Source: Ectocarpus siliculosus
Lineage: Eukaryota > Sar > Phaeophyceae > Ectocarpales > Ectocarpaceae
DNA length: 64,000 nucleotides
Reading direction: 5' to 3'
NCBI GenBank assembly: GCA_000310025.1
Contig: FN649727.1
Span: forward strand, 5,425,593 to 5,489,592
Numbering within the stretch: the first letter of the stretch is position 1; each line of letters starts with the position of its first letter. Position numbers and translations under genes: made by a program. Of the stretch, positions 1 to 57,976 are shown piece after piece. The notes under the pieces were generated by a model. That model was not told the DNA's origin and searched no databases. It worked only from the letters and a program-made list of their open reading frames with translations.

Positions 1-3000
1 CCCCCCCCCCCCCCCCCCCCCCCGTCCGGCTCCCCTTGTCGCAGGACCGGCCCTTTGCTTTGACACACGATCCGCCCGCCCCAGTCCTGCCGCCTTCCGT
101 GCGTATTTACAAGGGGAATGTGCCTGTAGTGTCCTCTCTTTTCTACGCGTCTGTCGGCCTTGTTCCCCCCCCGTTTCTTCTGGAAGGCAACCTGAGGACA
201 GGGGGCGGGGGGCGGGGGGGGAATCGTTTTCGAGAGAACCAGATCAACCGTCGTCGTGAGTGGTAATGCATGTAAGGGATCGAACAAAGCCGACGTTGTG
301 TTGTTACCGTCAGAGCGGGCGGTGAGACGGGATGGGATGGGTCGCTGATAAGAGCTGTTAACGTCAGAGCGGACAGTGGGATGGGATGGGGTGGGTCGCT
401 CGTAAGAAAGAGCTGTAGAGTGCACTTGGCGTGTAATGGCAACGTGGGCTTCTTCCTTATCTCCGTACGACGAGCAACGACGACAAGTTCGTGGGAAAAA
501 GAAAAAAAAATGGGTGTACTGCACCCCCCCCAGTTTATCGGACAAAAATTGGTACTCGAAATGCTTAATGCTTCGAGGAGACAACTCGTGAGACGGCCGA
601 ATCACCCAAAATCTCATTCCGACACCTGGACAAAACACAGCGAAGGCCCATGCACAGCATCAACATCAACTGCTGCTACGAACTTTCTTTTTCGGCCATG
701 TCTTCAGCCCAAACATCGGCGCGTCGCGCAAGGCTTCTTCAAACGGTTACCACATTTTGACAATATCCCGGTGGAAATACCCACGGACATTTACCTATTG
801 TCTATTTTTATCACATTCCACCCATGTTTATCCGAATGTACCCTTGTTTGTCCAGTTCCGGGCCTCGAGAATCAAGCCCCACAAAATACACACGTCACCG
901 CACGGCAGAAATTTTCGAGGTCCAGAAAGTGGACAAAAGTGGGTACGATACGTTTCGGAAGTTATGTCTCGGACGAAAGTGGGAGGTTGGAAAAGGAGGA
1001 GACGGCGGCGGGTTATGCCCACTGGAATTTTTTCGGGCAAAATAGGGCACACAACCCTGTTGTGTGTCCTTGTGGGCCTTCCGCCGTGGTGATGAGCCTG
1101 GAGACAAAAAAGCGCAAAAAAAAAATCGTAAAAGTTGGGCTGTGCATGGGCGCCCTCGCCATTGCTCTCCGGGCATCAGAGTGAGGTCTTGAGTGGCTCG
1201 GTCCTCTCACGTGTGGTCTCGGCGAAGCAAGCTTTTGAGTAGGCCCAATCTCGTCCAAGAAAACGGGTGGGCAACCCACTTTTTTACTTTTGTCTACTTC
1301 CCCAAACGTTTTGTGGCAGTGACAGCGGTGTGCTATTTCCGTTGTGGTGAATGGTATGTGCACATCGGAGATAGGTCCGCCACCTTTTTTTTTTTTTTCT
1401 ATGTGCTACGACTGCTGCTGTCTGTTGCTGCTTACCATGTTATGTCGGCGTTCAAGTTCAGTGAGAGCTGTTTGATTGAAATCGACAAACAGAAGTGTCC
1501 ACTTCATCACAGCACACAGAAAAAGTACAGGTACAGCAGTACAGCAGCCGTGGGGGCGATGTTGCGTTTTTACACACGCCTCGGCGTTTCCCCTCTTTCT
1601 TGCTAATATAGCCGCGTTTGTCGGAATCTAACATTTCGCCGCGGTGTACTTGTACTTTGAACGATATATGCGGTTGGTGACGTGGCATATGACGCCCCCC
1701 TGTGGACCGATGTTCAAAGCTCGATTTCCACACAGCAGAGTGACACGGGCGGTCCCGAAAATGGCGGCGTTGGGACCGTTGTGTCAAAGAGGTTTCCAAA
1801 GAGTTAGTTAATAGTTTCATGTATGCGTTCTCTTCGTCGTGATTAAATCGAGGTTTGAAAATCGGTCCAGGGGATGTGGAATCGTATGTCACCAACGGAT
1901 GGTACAGCAATACATACTTCGCCGCAGTTTCCAGCTTTGTGTACGTACTTCATGTACTTCATATGCATAGCTCGTCGACTAGCCTGCTGTGGTACCGCTG
2001 TATGCTATGTGTATGTTCTTTCTTGCTTGTCGTACGAAATGCGCGCGAAGGCTGGCTGCAGCACTACATACTGCTGTACCGCCGCCGCTGTTAACATGTT
2101 CACCGTCGCATGGATCGCGGAGAGTTGGGCACAAGGCGACAGCAATAGTGCTTACCAAAAGCATGTGTTTGGTTGCGCATACTGTCCGCACGGGGGCCGA
2201 GGAGTTGGGAACATGGATCGGAGAAATAGGAGCGCACCTGGGTGCGACAAATACAAAAGCACGCGTTGCCTGAAACGATCGCGCGGGGGTGCCCAAACTG
2301 CTCGATTACGTTAGCGGGACAGAGGACTACCCGGCTGCCAACGACCGCGCCCATATTCGTGTACGCAAAAGACTAGAAGGGTACAGACACGAACACAAAC
2401 AGCCCTCTGTTACGTCGACGGCTGTCATCAACAGGGTCGATGCCAACATGCTATTGTAACAATGAACAAACAAGGAGGACTACTGTACAGCAGGTCGGTT
2501 GCACCCACCGTTTCTGTTTCAGGTTCGGGAAGCAGTGTGCGAACACCTGTCGAGCGTTTCGGAGACGAGGCCTACGCGGTGTAATTCCACGCACACACAC
2601 CCCGCCGCAGGGCAACAGCGCCGTGCGGAGGTGATCGAGCAACCTTCCGACGCACGGGTGGTTGCTGGTTGGCTAGGATGGAGTTGTTTACTGCGGGCAC
2701 AGGAGAGAGCCGCGGAATATATATCGCGCACACACATGTGCCATTTCTTGGAATATATGTCACTCAAGCTGCCGTGCTCTCCGAGACAAAGAAACGAACA
2801 CGCACATTAGTCACAGAGCACTGCCGTATGTGCAGTTGCTGACAAAAAAACTGCGTTGGTTGGATAAGGGGTACTGCTGTATGATGGTGGAGTGTGGGAC
2901 GCAAACTCACGCGTCACAAGCGCGCTTGTGGGCGAGCCGCTTGGGAAACAAAGGTTGGGCATAAAGGGGTGTAGGTGTGTGTGACATGTCCGAACGTATA

Positions 3001-6000
3001 TACTATTGTAGAGCCTCTACCAGCAGCAGCACGACCTGAACTGAATACACCTGCCTATGTCTGCTAGAAGAGTTGCACTGCTGTGTTCCACAGCAGTGCT
3101 TTCACGAGCATCTTGTTGACATTTTGCGACGTCTGTTACCGGCGAATGACCTCGAGCACCCGCCTCTCCTTCTGTGTCAAAATCTACCGCGCCCAACGCG
3201 CAGAGATCCGTCTCCCTGTCTCCACCGGAGATATGTAAAAGAAGGGAGTATTTACATGTACTTTACCCCCAGCCAGAAATAAATCACACGGTCAACAACC
3301 AACAACCGAGCATGGGGGAGGTGACGTACGCGCCGTCGTCCACCCGTGTAACAACACGGGGAATCAATCGCAACACAGCATGTGAGAGGCGGCCGGTAGT
3401 ACAATACAACTTGTTCCAAAACAGCAAGGCATTGCATATATACATAAGTGGAAGCCGCAGCTGGTTCGCTGACGGTTTGATGCTTCCGCCCAAGGCTTGG
3501 GTTGCTGATTGGTTGGAGCGTCCAGTTGAGCTGCGCTGGCCGCTGCTGCTGTTGCCAGTTGGCAACCAGTGAGTCAACGGAGGAGGTCCGCCGACCTCAG
3601 TCAAGCACGCTTTTCCGGGCGTTCGTCTTGCGAAACAACCAAGCCGAGTAGGCGACGATGTGCTTGCTCGTTGTGTAGAGACTATGGGGATGAAAAAAAT
3701 GTGTCTGTAAATATCTAAGGGTTCACGTGGCGAGGAAGAGAAAGTAACATGAGCAACGCCTTCCAACATTCGCTCCCGCCCGAAGCGTCTAGCGCACACT
3801 TACCTACCACGCCAAAGGAAAGACACCATGGCGGTCGAGGAGAAGGCGATGCATCCAAAACTTTGTAAAAAAAGTCAACAAATCGGGCCCTTGTAGTAAG
3901 TAATTCGAGCTGGTTCGATATCATGCGAGTGATCGATCAGTCCAGTACCCATGCGCAAACCCCAATCCCCTCGACCACGCACGGCGTGAGACGACGAGAA
4001 GAGCCAAGCCCACCTTCAGCAGAACCCCTCCCAGCTGCCTTGGAGAGGTGGACCGTCCTATTTCCACGTCTATTCTCTCCGGTCGACGCCACAGGTCACA
4101 CGTCGTCGCTGTGTGCCAGGAAAGGGCGAAACGCGGCGTAACCTCCCGGTTTCCGTGATCGGCTCTTTGCTGCTGGAACAACAGCACCAGTATTTGACAG
4201 CTCTGACACATATCCATCATGCATCCTCTCCCTCTTCCGTCTTGCGTCGGGCTGTGGGTGTGGGTTTCGCTCGTGTGTGAGAAAGGACGATGCCCATCAT
4301 CACTACATTTGTTTTCTCTTCTCGATCCCGGCTAAAGCTTCTCGCCGTGACGCGTGACGCCTATCCATACCTTCATTACCCGTCAATGTAGCTACACTGC
4401 TGTCCATACAACTAAATGCATACCGCAGGGTTTTCGGTTTTTTGAGCGATGCCGTGACGCCGCCGTGACCACATGTCATATTCCACGTAGCAAGCAGGCA
4501 AGGTTGGGCGCACCAATCACAACCACGGTCTGATAAACCAGAGAATCCCTAACATCAGCCAGTAGGTAGCATGCCGGACAAACAAGATCGATCAAGAAAC
4601 AGATCGATACACAAGAGCCTACCCCGCTCCACACTCTCTTGCTCGACACAAAAAAACAGGAAAAAAAATAGAAACGACCGTTGACCAAATGTCGTTCAAT
4701 TTTTGACACCGATTCGTGAGACGTGAGACGAGACGCGATCCTTACCGTGTTTTATTGGTTTTCTACACATGTAAGCACCACGAGGCACCATGATCCAAGC
4801 ACACACCATAAGCGAACCGCACAGACACCTACTGAGTACACATAGGCGACCATTTTGCATAGGTTAGGTTTTGTTGATTGTGGAGAGTGGAGAGACGGCA
4901 CTCTCTCCCCCTTCCCCCTCGGCATTTTTGCGAGGGGTTGTTGGCTCGATGATGGTGGTGCATGCGCCGCCGCGTTGTTTCGATATTGAACGGTGTGGGC
5001 AATATGTATCGCGGTTACACACTCGTATAGATAGATACATAACGCAGATTTTTTTTCAATCTCAGTCGAGTCTCCTCTCCAGACTTTCGTTGCATTGCCG
5101 GCAGCAGAGGCGAGCAGAATGTCGCCGTCATAATTGGCTTTTGCTCTATTTTGGACTACAAGATCGTCTCATAAAATCAAACATTACGACGCTATTTGAC
5201 AGCAGCTACAACCTGCAACAGACGCGACCCATTCAAACAGTAGTACGAAGTATTTTGTTGCTCTGGTGTCGCACTTGAGAGCAATCTTGCTTGCCTAATG
5301 CACCCAACAACAACGTTTTTCGAGATCGTCTCCTCAGTCTTCAGTCGCCAACAAACAGCAACCAACGATATATATTGCCGAGTGCTGTTTATCACTACTT
5401 TACACCAGCATCGACGTCAAGCCGGGTACTGTAGAAGTCGCCACCGTCGTGGCCATTGTCATCATCGTTGTCGATGCCGTCCCAGATCAGTCGAGTCCGC
5501 GTGTACAACAGCAGCACCTCGAAGACGCGTACATCGAGGGTCCTTCGAAGAAGCTCGCATCGGTTTAGCGCCAACCGTTGGTGACGCCCGCGATGGCCTT
5601 CGTAGGTCTGGCCCCCTCACGAGCATCGCGAGATCCCACAGTTGTTGTTCAAGCGCCTTTATCACCAGAGGGGGGGGGAAGACGCCATTGTGAAAGAGAA
5701 ATGTCGGTCAGGTGAGTAGATACTTCGGTCGGGGGGGGGGGGGTGACCTTGATTTGTTCTCGTTGACCTTGATTTGTTCTCTGCCGGTTTCTTCAGCGCT
5801 AAACATGAACAACCCCTTGGTCTGTCGCTGGGGTTCGCGCCTATCCGTTGGCCTTCATCAAGGTAGCGCCTGTCTTGGACCGCATCAAAGGACACAAGGC
5901 AACTAACTTTCCGAACAACGAATTGCTCCCTCTTTGCCGTACTTGCGGTACAAATCAGAGAAAAACACGAAATACCTCGTCTCATGCTCTTACACGGCAC

Positions 6001-54258: not shown

Positions 54259-57200
54259 ATGAGCGCGTCTCAGGAAGAGTCACAGGGGATGACCACCGCT
54301 GCGGAGGAGAGCCAAGACACCCCTGGGGACTCCTTCGATGATACGCAAGAGTTGAAGGAGCAGGAGGAGGAGGAGGAGGGCGGCGGCAAGAAGAAGAAAG
54401 GCAAGAAGAAGAAGGCGGAGTTGCCGATCTTCACCAAGAGGGATCCTATCGATCGTGTCCCCTTCCCATCCACGGGGACGACCTTCACCGTGCTGTCCTG
54501 GAACGTGAATGGCGTCCGAGCGACCGCCAAGAAAGGCCTGGAGCCGCTGAGGCGTATGGTGGAGAAAGAGATGCCCGATATCGTCTGTTTGCAGGTTTGG
54601 AGAGTGTAATTTTTCAGGCGATTTTCTGCGAGAGTGCGGCACGGTCGGCCGCGCATGACATGTTTCCGCACGCTCTCGGGATTGCTCCACTTTCAATTTG
54701 GTTTGATGTAAGGTGGGTGTCTCTCTCTCTGTGGGAAGTGATGATGTGAACCCATTCCAAAAGGTACTTTCCAGCATTCCATGGCTTGGCGTGAATACGA
54801 TTCCCGTCGTGGAGAAAATGGGCGTCGAAAGTCGTCACAGCAGCAGTTGGGGGGGGGGGGGGGGGGGGGGGNNNNNNNNNNNNNNNNNNNNNNNNNNNNN
54901 NNNNNNNNNNNNNNNNNNNNNNNNNNNNNNNNNNNNNNNNNNNNNNNNNNNNNNNNNNNNNNNNNNNNNNNCTTTTTTTGTGGGAAGTGAGGATGGGACC
55001 CCTTTCCAAAAGGTCTTTTCCCCCTTTCCAGGGCTGGGGGGAAATGGGTTTTCCTTGGGGGAAAAAAGGGGGTCCAAATGTGCTTCAACGTCCTTTTGGG
55101 GGGGGTGGGGGGGGGGGGGTGATGTTATTAGCCATCATGTGCATATCCATACGCAGTTCACACATTTTGGAGGGCCCCAAACCTACCGTAACTAGGGCAG
55201 AGTGCGTAACACATATGTACGGGGGCCGGACTACAGTAGAATCCCCAAGCCATCCCTACTGAAAGGGATTCAACAACTTTTCGAGTGTCGTCAAGTGCAG
55301 ACCTTGCCTGCTGACCGAATGTCCCAAACCATCGCGAACAACATCAATCAGGAGACCAAGATCCAGGAAAAGGACGTCGAAGCATTGAGGGCACAAGATA
55401 TTCTCCCCGGCTACGCTTCGGAGTGGAGCTGCTCCCGGACGAAGTTGGGCTACTCGGGCACCGCGGTTTTCTTCACCAAGCAGTCCGACCCATGGAAGGG
55501 GGACGGGGGTGGAATAGACGCAACGGGCAACGGGTTACCATCCGATGAGCCGGTGAATCTTAATCCTCTGCCCAACCTCTCGCACAAACTGCCTCACGCG
55601 TCCCTTGCCGGGGTGGCGCGCTGCCGTTCCTGCCAATACCTATCTACTTCACTTTCACAACCGCACACGAGCCCCTTGTTAGCGGTACCCTGCGTTGTTC
55701 TTTCTGCCCGTATCCGTTAACCCTCTTTGATCTTCTGTAGTGGCTTTGGTGTGTGTCAAGCCAACGGAATCTGATAATCGTTGCCGCTGACCTTCGCTCT
55801 AGTGGCCGGCCTGCTACACGTCTTGCTGTGCCGGGCATTGAACGGATTCGCTCATTTTGTTTGTTCACCTCGGCGCAGGCGAGGAAGAAGCTCAAGCAAG
55901 GAAAAATTTCCACGTTCTTCTCCCCGAAGCCTAGCAAGAAGTCGGCGAAGGGGTCAGCGCCGGAAAGTGAGACACCGACACGCGCCCCTGCGGCAGAACC
56001 GGCAACATCCGCGGCAGCATCGACGAATTCCGCGGATTCTTTGCCCGGGGGCCGCAGCGGATTCAAGGTGCTGTCGGTTCGGTTCGGCATCGGGGGTGAC
56101 TCGAAGCACAACAACGAGGGCCGGTCGATCACCGTCGAGTACGAGAAGGTGCAAGAGAGAGGAAACGAGAAGAGAGTTTGGCGGTGAAGGAAGGGATAAG
56201 GGGCGGAAGGCTTTGGAACACGCCTTGGACCGCCGGCTTCAGCGCAGCGGTAGATTCTCGCCAGAGAGTGGACCGGCAGGCCTGAAGGGGGTGTGTGTGT
56301 TCATGTTGCTTGTGTGTCTTTGCTTGGATTAGTCGGCTGCTGCGTTGGTGTGCAATGATGAAGGATGCGCGGTTTGTGGGAGGACGGGTGGGAACGGTGC
56401 ACCGCTGGTTTCAACGCCAGTATTTCTGTTGAGTTGCTGATCGGCCGGCGATCGGTTACGGCATGGGTGATTTTTGAGCTGAGAATAAGTTGTTACCGAT
56501 CACATAACGCAATGTGTGTGGCACCCTCTTACGGCCTGACTCCAACCACGGCCAGCACCTGCACTCTTCCTCACTCCCCACCTCCCGTTCGTTCCTTGCA
56601 TGCCGATTGAACGACATGCGACGCCACACGCGGCGCGCACGAACAGTTCTTCGTGGTGACTGTGTACGTGCCCAACTCGGGAGAAAAGCTGGTGCGCCTT
56701 GATTACCGCACCAAGGAGTGGGACGTGGCTCTGAAGGCCTACGTGGAATCTCTGGAGGCGCAAGGGAAGCCGGTAGTGCTCAACGGTGACCTCAACGTCG
56801 CCCATTTGTGAGTATGCTCCCTTCATGCGGCCTCTGTTGCTTTTGCTGTGGTGGCGTAGGTCTTGTGTCGGTGTTTATGGTGTTGACATAGGTTCCTCGT
56901 CTGCTGTCGTTTTGGCGGCTGTTGATGGAATTGGCGACAAACAACCACGTGTGGGAGTAAACCTTCAGCGAGCGGGTGCTTCCGCCCGCACAACAAAGCG
57001 CACGGATCAATGACCCCTCTACTGTTTTGCGAGGTATCCTCTCGGTCGGCTATTCCTACAATGCACCTTAGTATCTCCTTCAACATAGCGATGCTCGTCC
57101 CCCTCCCCGCCATTGGCGCGCAGAGACCTCGACATCTACAACAGAGGCGCGAAGCACTTGCCGAAAAACGCCGCCACGACCAAGGAGGAGCGGGATTCGT

Positions 57201-57976
57201 TCGACTCGTGGGTGAACGGGGGAAAGGTTTCGGACGCGTTCCGACGGTTACACCCGGACGCCGAAGGGGCGTACACCTACTGGAGCGTTCGAACCGGCGC
57301 GGTGAGTCGCGCGCGCACTACTTTGCGGCCGCGGTTGCCGTTGCTGGTGATGGTGATGGTGGTTCGTGTGCATGTTGTTCAATTTTGTTGTTGCCGTCTG
57401 AAGGGCCACTTCGTGGTTCTTTGTATAGTTCGTTCCAGGAGTAGTTGTTGATGCTTCAAGAATCTCTCGCATTACTGCTGTTCACACATGGTGCGTACAT
57501 TTACCTTGATGGCGACGGGCGCGTCTTGTTTGTTGCGAGGGATGTGCCTTTCAACGCCCCCGACACGAAGAAGTCACAAATCGCAGTCTCGTCCGCCCGC
57601 CTTGACTTGGTCAAGCCGGTACGACTCTCTCGTATACCCCGCGAAACGGTCCCTACCCACCCACAGTCCGTGCCTTGATTGTGTTGCACACTAAATAATT
57701 GGCCTTTTCGTTCTCGTCTCCTCTTTTTTTCAGCGACCCGTCAATAGGGGGCTCCGACTGGACTACTTCGTGTGCTCTAATGCCGTTTTCGAGGATGGGG
57801 CGGCCGGGGGGGGGCAGGCGAAAGCGACGGCAAGGCGGGCGAAAGGCAGCGCGCCCAAGGGGAAGGGGGCGACGGGCGCGAAGGGGATGGTGGTGCACGA
57901 CTGCTTCATGCTGGACGAGGCGACCGTGGGCGTAAGCGACCACTGCCCCATCGGAATCACGCTTCGCTCGACGTGA
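54259..57976 (+). CDS. AP endonuclease, APE1/ExoIII (EEP) family, with an internal PIP-box insertion (6 exons, 462 aa)
   Basis: Exons 54259-54594, 55352-55552, 55879-56148, 56647-56807, 57124-57301, 57734-57976; phases 0,0,0,2,0. The enzyme cuts DNA 5' to abasic sites in base-excision repair. Catalytic set, with human APE1 equivalents: N82 in SWNVNG (N68), E113 in LQETK (E96), Y276 in YVPNSG (Y171), D317/N319 in NGDLNVAH (D210/N212), D392 in LRLDYF (D283), D451/H452 in SDHCPI (D308/H309). All are present, so activity is expected. The N-terminus is acidic, then has a Lys cluster (residues 44-52), a likely nuclear signal. Between FFTKQ and VLSVRFGIG, where relatives have a few residues, about 90 are inserted. 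They include QGKISTFF (Q186-F193), a match to the PCNA-binding PIP consensus. A second, basic loop lies before the last catalytic pair. The start follows from the first ATG in the open frame. Confidence 0.92.
54842..55115. other. Assembly gap (100 N at 54872-54971) in AP-endonuclease intron 1 with near-duplicate flanks
   Basis: The left flank ends in a G run of about 23 bases before the Ns. The sequence right of the gap (from about 54976) repeats the left flank (from about 54730) in the same order: gggaagtga...ccaaaaggt...ttcca...ctggg. The right copy has many substitutions towards G and homopolymer stretches, and it also ends in a G run near 55110. This looks like one locus represented twice, the second time from poor read tails. 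Confidence 0.7.
55897..55920 (+). other. PIP-box motif QGKISTFF inside AP endonuclease
   Basis: Eight codons at the start of exon 3 match QxxIxxFF, flanked by basic residues (KKLK before, SPKPSKK after), as in strong PCNA ligands. The motif lies in a predicted disordered insertion of the nuclease core and not at a terminus. Confidence 0.75.

Follow-up and report, generated by a model that had tools for sequence, protein, structure and literature searches.

Introduction

Reviews distinguish APE2 from APE1 through its PCNA-binding PIP box and its Zf-GRF zinc finger, and in the excerpts used here the human APE2 PIP box occupies residues 390-397, between the catalytic domain and the Zf-GRF, although one passage of the second review places it N-terminally (PMC9900424, PMC12723232). 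Elsewhere, excerpts on PCNA partners describe three hydrophobic PIP residues entering a pocket of PCNA that adjoins the connector loop, report that basic flanks raise PCNA affinity, and note that the majority of proteins binding PCNA are disordered, wholly or in some region (PMC7225939). Internal PIP boxes are described for Pol eta; in the part of that source which treats them they do not bind PCNA in vitro, and matter for PCNA monoubiquitination and stimulation (PMC6116012). In plant BER, PCNA is linked to gap filling with Pol delta/epsilon (long-patch) and, via Pol beta and XRCC1, to the short-patch route, and APE1 is named among the BER factors that interact with PCNA (excerpts of PMC6728418).

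Here we describe an AP endonuclease gene in a 64-kb stretch of DNA (the window), which lies within contig C2 of a genome of intron-containing genes (189.5 Mb in 492 contigs) that was searched as a whole. An initial annotation of the window had placed the known PIP boxes of AP endonucleases at the C-terminus of APE2, which the review excerpts bear out apart from the one N-terminal passage, and with which the APE2 gene of this genome agrees. The window gene carries its candidate PIP box inside the catalytic core of an enzyme of the APE1 type.

Results

Gene model and enzyme class

The gene spans 54259-57976 on the forward strand and was modelled as six exons separated by five GT-AG introns, with a frame that is open throughout and encodes 462 residues, the C-terminus following directly on the core (Table 1). 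A seventh exon at ~57540-57620, within the last intron, was set aside, as the core alignment does not need one. Intron 1 contains a stretch at 54700-55085 (gtgggaagtgatgatgtgaacccattccaaaaggt...) which is repeated in degraded form beyond a 100-base N gap, along with long G runs; the repeat around the gap looks like a low-quality duplicate from assembly.

Table 1 Features of the AP endonuclease gene, in window coordinates
Feature	Position	Strand	Description	Basis
Exon 1	54259..54594	+	N-terminus acidic and rich in Lys (KKKKGKKKK); the first catalytic strands (SWNVNGVRA) follow, as far as VCLQ	gene model, alignments
Exon 2	55352..55552	+	core from ETKIQ, plus 24-residue insert tail QSDPWK...PSDEP	gene model, alignments
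Insert, first part	55481..55552	+	aa 156-179, 24 residues, exon 2 end	gene model
Intron 2	55553..55878	+	326 bp, GT-AG, phase 0; within inserted loop	gene model
Exon 3	55879..56148	+	borders ...cgcag/GCG and AAG/gtgcaa; phase 0 both sides	gene model
Insert, second part	55879..56067	+	aa 180-242, 63 residues, Ser/Ala/Pro/Lys-rich	gene model
Candidate PIP box QGKISTFF	55897..55920	+	aa 186-193	gene model, six-frame scan, shuffles
AG of possible alternative in-frame 3' splice site	55928..55929	+	exon start 55930, PIP removed	acceptor inspection
Exon 3 remainder	56068..56148	+	core strands (27 codons)	alignments
Exon 4	56647..56807	+	ends GDLNVAH	gene model, alignments
Exon 5	57124..57301	+		gene model, alignments
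Exon 6	57734..57976	+	RLDYF..., ends with stop	gene model, alignments
Second, shorter insert	57791..57889 (end counted by hand)	+	Gly/Ala/Lys-rich, exon 6 (...GAKGM)	protein vs alignments

The 462-residue model matched Exo_endo_phos (PF03372) at 70.5 bits, against a curated cut-off of 24.5, and the NCBIfam model xth (TIGR00633) at 215.3 bits, against 99.05 (E 1e-63). Its best PDB match was 8ka3, named as a chloroplastic AP endonuclease (E 2.8e-58), followed by many APE1 chains at E about 1e-49 to 1e-52; we take 8ka3 to be the Arabidopsis enzyme and the APE1 chains to be human. A chain named endonuclease 2 (7n3z) matched at E only 1.7e-4, and 6wcd, possibly an APE2 too, at 5.6e-20. WNVxG (as SWNVNG), LQETK, YVPN, GDLN, RLDYF and SDH, which we take to be the catalytic motifs, are all in the model and aligned to 8ka3. 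Against the two hallmarks of APE2, Pfam gave no Zf-GRF match in the protein up to E 1, and its only general PIP match falls between core strands, not C-terminal to the catalytic domain. The predicted product is an APE1-type AP endonuclease with an intact core, the APE1/ExoIII assignment of the initial annotation being upheld by both profiles and by the alignments to 8ka3 and the APE1 chains, and its Lys-rich N-terminus suggests that it is probably nuclear. Genome-wide there were 92 matches to Exo_endo_phos, some within very long open frames, and some of these are perhaps retrotransposon endonucleases.

The inserted loop

The core alignment stops after GYSGTAVF, at a gap of 1 to 5 residues in the relatives against 87 to 91 in the window protein (four alignments shown). 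The insert itself comprises 87 residues (aa 156-242), flanked by FFTK and VLSV, and its reported position between two core strands is where the PDB alignments break. The segment of roughly 90 residues previously attributed to exon 3 was near the mark in size; its anatomy is different, as exon 2 contributes its last 24 codons and exon 3 only the first 63 of its 90, so that the insert is itself interrupted by intron 2. The last 27 codons of exon 3 encode core strands and skipping the exon would therefore damage the enzyme, which makes exon skipping, once put forward as a refutation, the wrong test.

By composition the insert is a disorder-type loop, with 70 of its 87 residues disorder-promoting; it has a net charge of +4, basic clusters (RKKLK and KPSKK), and SP and TPTR sites. 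A 68-residue piece matched only itself in the genome, and the 33 residues around the PIP motif matched no PDB chain. The second low-complexity insert, in exon 6, lies close to the C-terminal catalytic motif; on the codon scale described below, 30 codons from it have an in-frame score of 0.518.

A search with the core alignment returned 8 viral loci and at least 593 confirmed relatives in genome contigs. The homologue set was made up of the 8 viral loci and the best 80 of the others, and these 88 are prokaryote or virus loci with no eukaryotes among them, a set that is no test of conservation. Neither the whole protein nor its C-terminal 107 residues recovered a relative with the insert among viral contigs. 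Measured from GYSG to EGR, the region is 114 residues long in the window protein, compared with 25-30 in the 82 of 88 homologues that could be measured by pattern (26 in 75 of these 82). The large insert was absent from 86 of the 88 (82 by pattern; L044, L074, L091 and L107 by eye), the other two, L047 and L048, being unmeasurable. In the same genome, this length is 52 in APE2 and 36 (with a predicted splice) in a paralogue with a SAP domain, which has an apparent intron in the same loop, in a different phase. Judging by that intron and these two lengths, this loop accommodates introns and varies in size.

PIP motifs and PCNA in the same genome

As yardsticks we used other repair genes of this genome. 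A gene which we take to be FEN1-like from its motifs (L036; XPG_I 2.3e-16) reads QKRMDSFFSVIPNPNAGAKK across one predicted 187-bp intron and so yields the motif QKRMDSFF, followed by Pro and Lys. The APE2 gene (L018; G000:C26:5433500-5440500, minus strand) has the catalytic exons, a GRF zinc finger (PF06839, E 2.9e-11) and, after the catalytic domain, QEKLAKYF at 2990-3013 of the locus; it thus keeps its usual PCNA motif. RQSKLAFGPA, considered earlier as a degenerate PIP box of APE2, was dropped once the six-frame scan gave this proper motif. The APE1-like paralogue (L017; G000:C15:902500-909500, minus strand) has an N-terminal SAP domain (1.1e-7), as does plant ARP, with no large insert and no PIP match in six frames.

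The genome also encodes PCNA (PCNA_N 2.0e-46), with exons reading HVSL and LMDIDSEHLGIP, which we take to resemble the PIP pocket and connector loop of human PCNA. A second, divergent PCNA_N match (3.9e-9; L020/L040, G000:C16:4452931-4453278) lies in a 355-residue open frame and could be of viral origin.

The six-frame scan found no convincing PIP box in the partial loci of a ligase (L038), XPG/EXO1-like nucleases (L035/L037), MutS (L129-L130) and UDG (L131-L132); these negatives are weak, as such a scan misses motifs split by an intron, the FEN1 one included. One match apiece turned up in L038 and L036, within open frames of 15 and 31 residues, respectively; both look like chance. In L035 (G000:C2:6829500-6837500; XPG_I 8.3e-17), presumably an EXO1-like nuclease gene, there is a PIP-like stretch without Gln, GNNLTKYWGAPLPSKK. 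Pol X thumb domains are present in the genome; the XRCC1_N profile matched nothing in it, nor did it match the controls, so that this negative is no evidence of absence.

Motif strength and chance expectation

QGKISTFF fits Qxx-Psi-xx-aromatic-aromatic exactly, lies 30 residues from one end of the insert and 49 from the other, and sits in a stretch of 27 residues with a net charge of +7. The computed coordinates, pattern and flank charge substantiate the exact QxxIxxFF with basic flanks reported by the initial annotation, and the motif and its placement are confirmed as real in the DNA. The disordered surroundings and basic flanks of a PIP client are likewise there, as judged by composition only. 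In PIP degrons, which CRL4-Cdt2 recognises, residues 5 and 6 are TD and position +4 is basic; QGKISTFF, with S and T there and P at +4, does not fit this rule.

When the insert was shuffled, the general PIP pattern (Q..[ILMV]..[FY][FY]) arose in 16 of 200,000 sequences, the strict form in 13 and a very loose form in 1,111; shuffles of the whole protein gave 240, 60 and 9,915 of 40,000, respectively. A chance origin of QGKISTFF is unlikely. Scanned in all six frames, the window contains two instances of the general pattern, QGKISTFF and one at 667, the latter (QLLLRTFF) inside a 166-residue open frame. It also occurs in two of the 88 prokaryote and virus homologues (L043 and L115), which we take as chance matches; that of L115, QKPLSVFY, lies, by its letters, in a core strand adjoining the same loop.

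Codon scores were trained on 1,053 codons (the window gene, L017, L018, L036 and L039) with the introns of the window gene as background. The exon-3 part of the insert scores 0.087 bits per codon in frame and 0.094 in the +2 frame, higher in frame than all 982 overlapping 63-codon blocks of the gene's own introns (maximum -0.023). The exon-2 tail reaches 0.209 with its other frames negative, and the core part of exon 3 reaches 0.827. The coding signal of the exon-3 insert part is thus modest to weak.

Taken together, these data bear on the reading that the insert is neutral low-complexity sequence exonised from an intron, whose fit to the PIP pattern is fortuitous and which binds nothing. The position of intron 2 within the insert, the weak coding signal, the chance matches among the homologues and the exon-6 insert, which implies that this protein gathers such sequences anyway, are all to be expected if it were so. 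Set against them are the scarcity of the strict consensus in the insert shuffles, the basic flanks, and the resemblance of QGKISTFF to QKRMDSFF of the FEN1-like gene, and we consider this reading unlikely, if a serious contender.

Splicing of exon 3

The modelled acceptor of exon 3 has 15 pyrimidines in 21 positions and, like all five modelled acceptors, ends in CAG. Among further in-frame AGs, those giving starts at 55888, 55891 and 55897 keep the PIP motif and those at 55939, 55942, 55951 and 55972 would drop it; an upstream start at 55741 would add 46 residues (third-position GC 0.50) with the PIP motif still kept, and was rejected. The site at 55930 is in frame with 17 of 21 pyrimidines, and its use would remove no more than a 17-residue segment, PIP motif included. 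The site at 56068 has 9 of 21; as the acceptors modelled for exons 2 and 4 are equally pyrimidine-poor (9 and 10 of 21), tract strength alone does not exclude it.

It is these downstream in-frame sites, above all 55930, rather than exon skipping, that threaten the PIP reading. If 55930 (or 56068) were the main 3' site, the motif would be untranslated, or translated only in part of the transcripts, and its Phe-Phe-Ser-Pro codons would be nothing but a pyrimidine tract, one that is richer at 55930 than at the modelled start. Both sites, however, end in AAG, and third-position GC across 55879-55929 is 0.76, whereas first and second positions have 0.29 and 0.41, albeit over 17 codons only, which together make this reading decidedly unlikely. 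The PIP-bearing splice form is the better model, and an isoform without the motif is possible.

Discussion

The best reading of the locus, which we hold to be slightly better than an even call, is that of a nuclear APE1 tethered to PCNA by a PIP box in a flexible internal loop. It draws on the in-frame gene model, the PDB matches, the rarity of the motif in shuffles and the presence of a PCNA gene, and equally on the disorder-type insert, the basic flanks and the greater length of the same loop in the genome's APE2 (52 vs. 26 residues). The FEN1-like QKRMDSFF and the APE2 QEKLAKYF point the same way, as they display the same grammar in proteins known elsewhere as PCNA clients. Against the tether count the weak coding signal of the exon-3 insert part, the acceptors beyond the motif, the pattern matches in two homologues, the tendency of the protein to gather low-complexity inserts, and the want of a convincing PIP box in the partial ligase, XPG/EXO1-like, MutS and UDG loci. 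The wider claim, that this lineage has made a PCNA client not only of APE2 but of the APE1-type enzyme too, by means of a tether grown inside its catalytic domain, we advance tentatively, at somewhat less than even confidence.

Mechanistically, the loop would act as a flexible tether, its linkers of 30 and 49 residues giving the motif enough reach to contact the clamp with the core engaged on DNA. QGKISTFF would dock in the PIP pocket under the interdomain loop of PCNA, leaving the catalytic domain able to engage and cut AP sites close to the loaded clamp; in long-patch or post-replicative repair, Pol delta/epsilon, FEN1 and ligase could then take over the nick. Such a setting seems likelier to us than short-patch repair. 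The initial annotation had the loop coupling short-patch repair to the clamp, a claim that we do not retain, as nothing in the locus is specific to short-patch repair and the excerpted plant review gives PCNA roles in both routes (PMC6728418). The tether would have arisen independently of the APE2 PIP box, probably via coding sequence growing into the ends of the loop intron.

Two further readings concern what the insert might do instead. According to the excerpts at hand, the PIP, RIR and MIP classes overlap, with multiple hubs reported as partners for many of these motifs (PMC7145657, PMC7225939). There is accordingly a slim chance that the motif binds another genome-maintenance hub, such as the Rev1 C-terminal domain or Mlh1, instead of or besides PCNA. 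The full QxxIxxFF with its Gln favours PCNA, and a Rev1 motif should be disfavoured by the Pro at +2 from FF. It is hardly credible that the insert serves chiefly for nuclear localisation or phospho-regulation: RKKLK, KPSKK and the S/T-P sites could be so construed, but the N-terminus already has a Lys-rich run and QxxIxxFF would be left unexplained.

If the tether is real, AP-site incision would be directed by the clamp, and the incision step of BER would be hard-wired to it in one lineage. It would also follow that ExoIII-type enzymes acquired recruitment by the clamp on two occasions, each at its own site in the fold, and the locus would be a clear-cut example of how a binding motif emerges in a loop insert of a catalytic fold. 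The protein is a natural construct for asking how clamp-tethering affects APE1 activity.

Among the literature matches listed, in a search that most subscription journals lay outside, there was no APE1-type enzyme with an internal PIP box; as far as the literature searched goes, the elements are known, and their arrangement, a predicted PIP box within an APE1-type catalytic domain, appears to be undescribed. With plant ARP (8ka3) and animal APE1 the window protein has the catalytic core and the order of motifs in common, and differs from them by the 87-residue insert with its PIP motif after the GYSG strand. With APE2/Apn2 it shares an ExoIII-fold nuclease and a PIP box, and the same loop is also longer in this genome's APE2; the APE2 PIP box, however, follows the catalytic domain and is accompanied by a Zf-GRF (PMC9900424), as also in this genome, whereas the window protein has no Zf-GRF and its motif is inside the core. 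FEN1 and other PIP clients use the same motif grammar, as in QKRMDSFF of this genome's FEN1-like gene, but the FEN1 box is in a C-terminal tail and that of the window enzyme within the catalytic domain. Pol eta, as excerpted, likewise has internal PIP boxes, in a different enzyme (PMC6116012).
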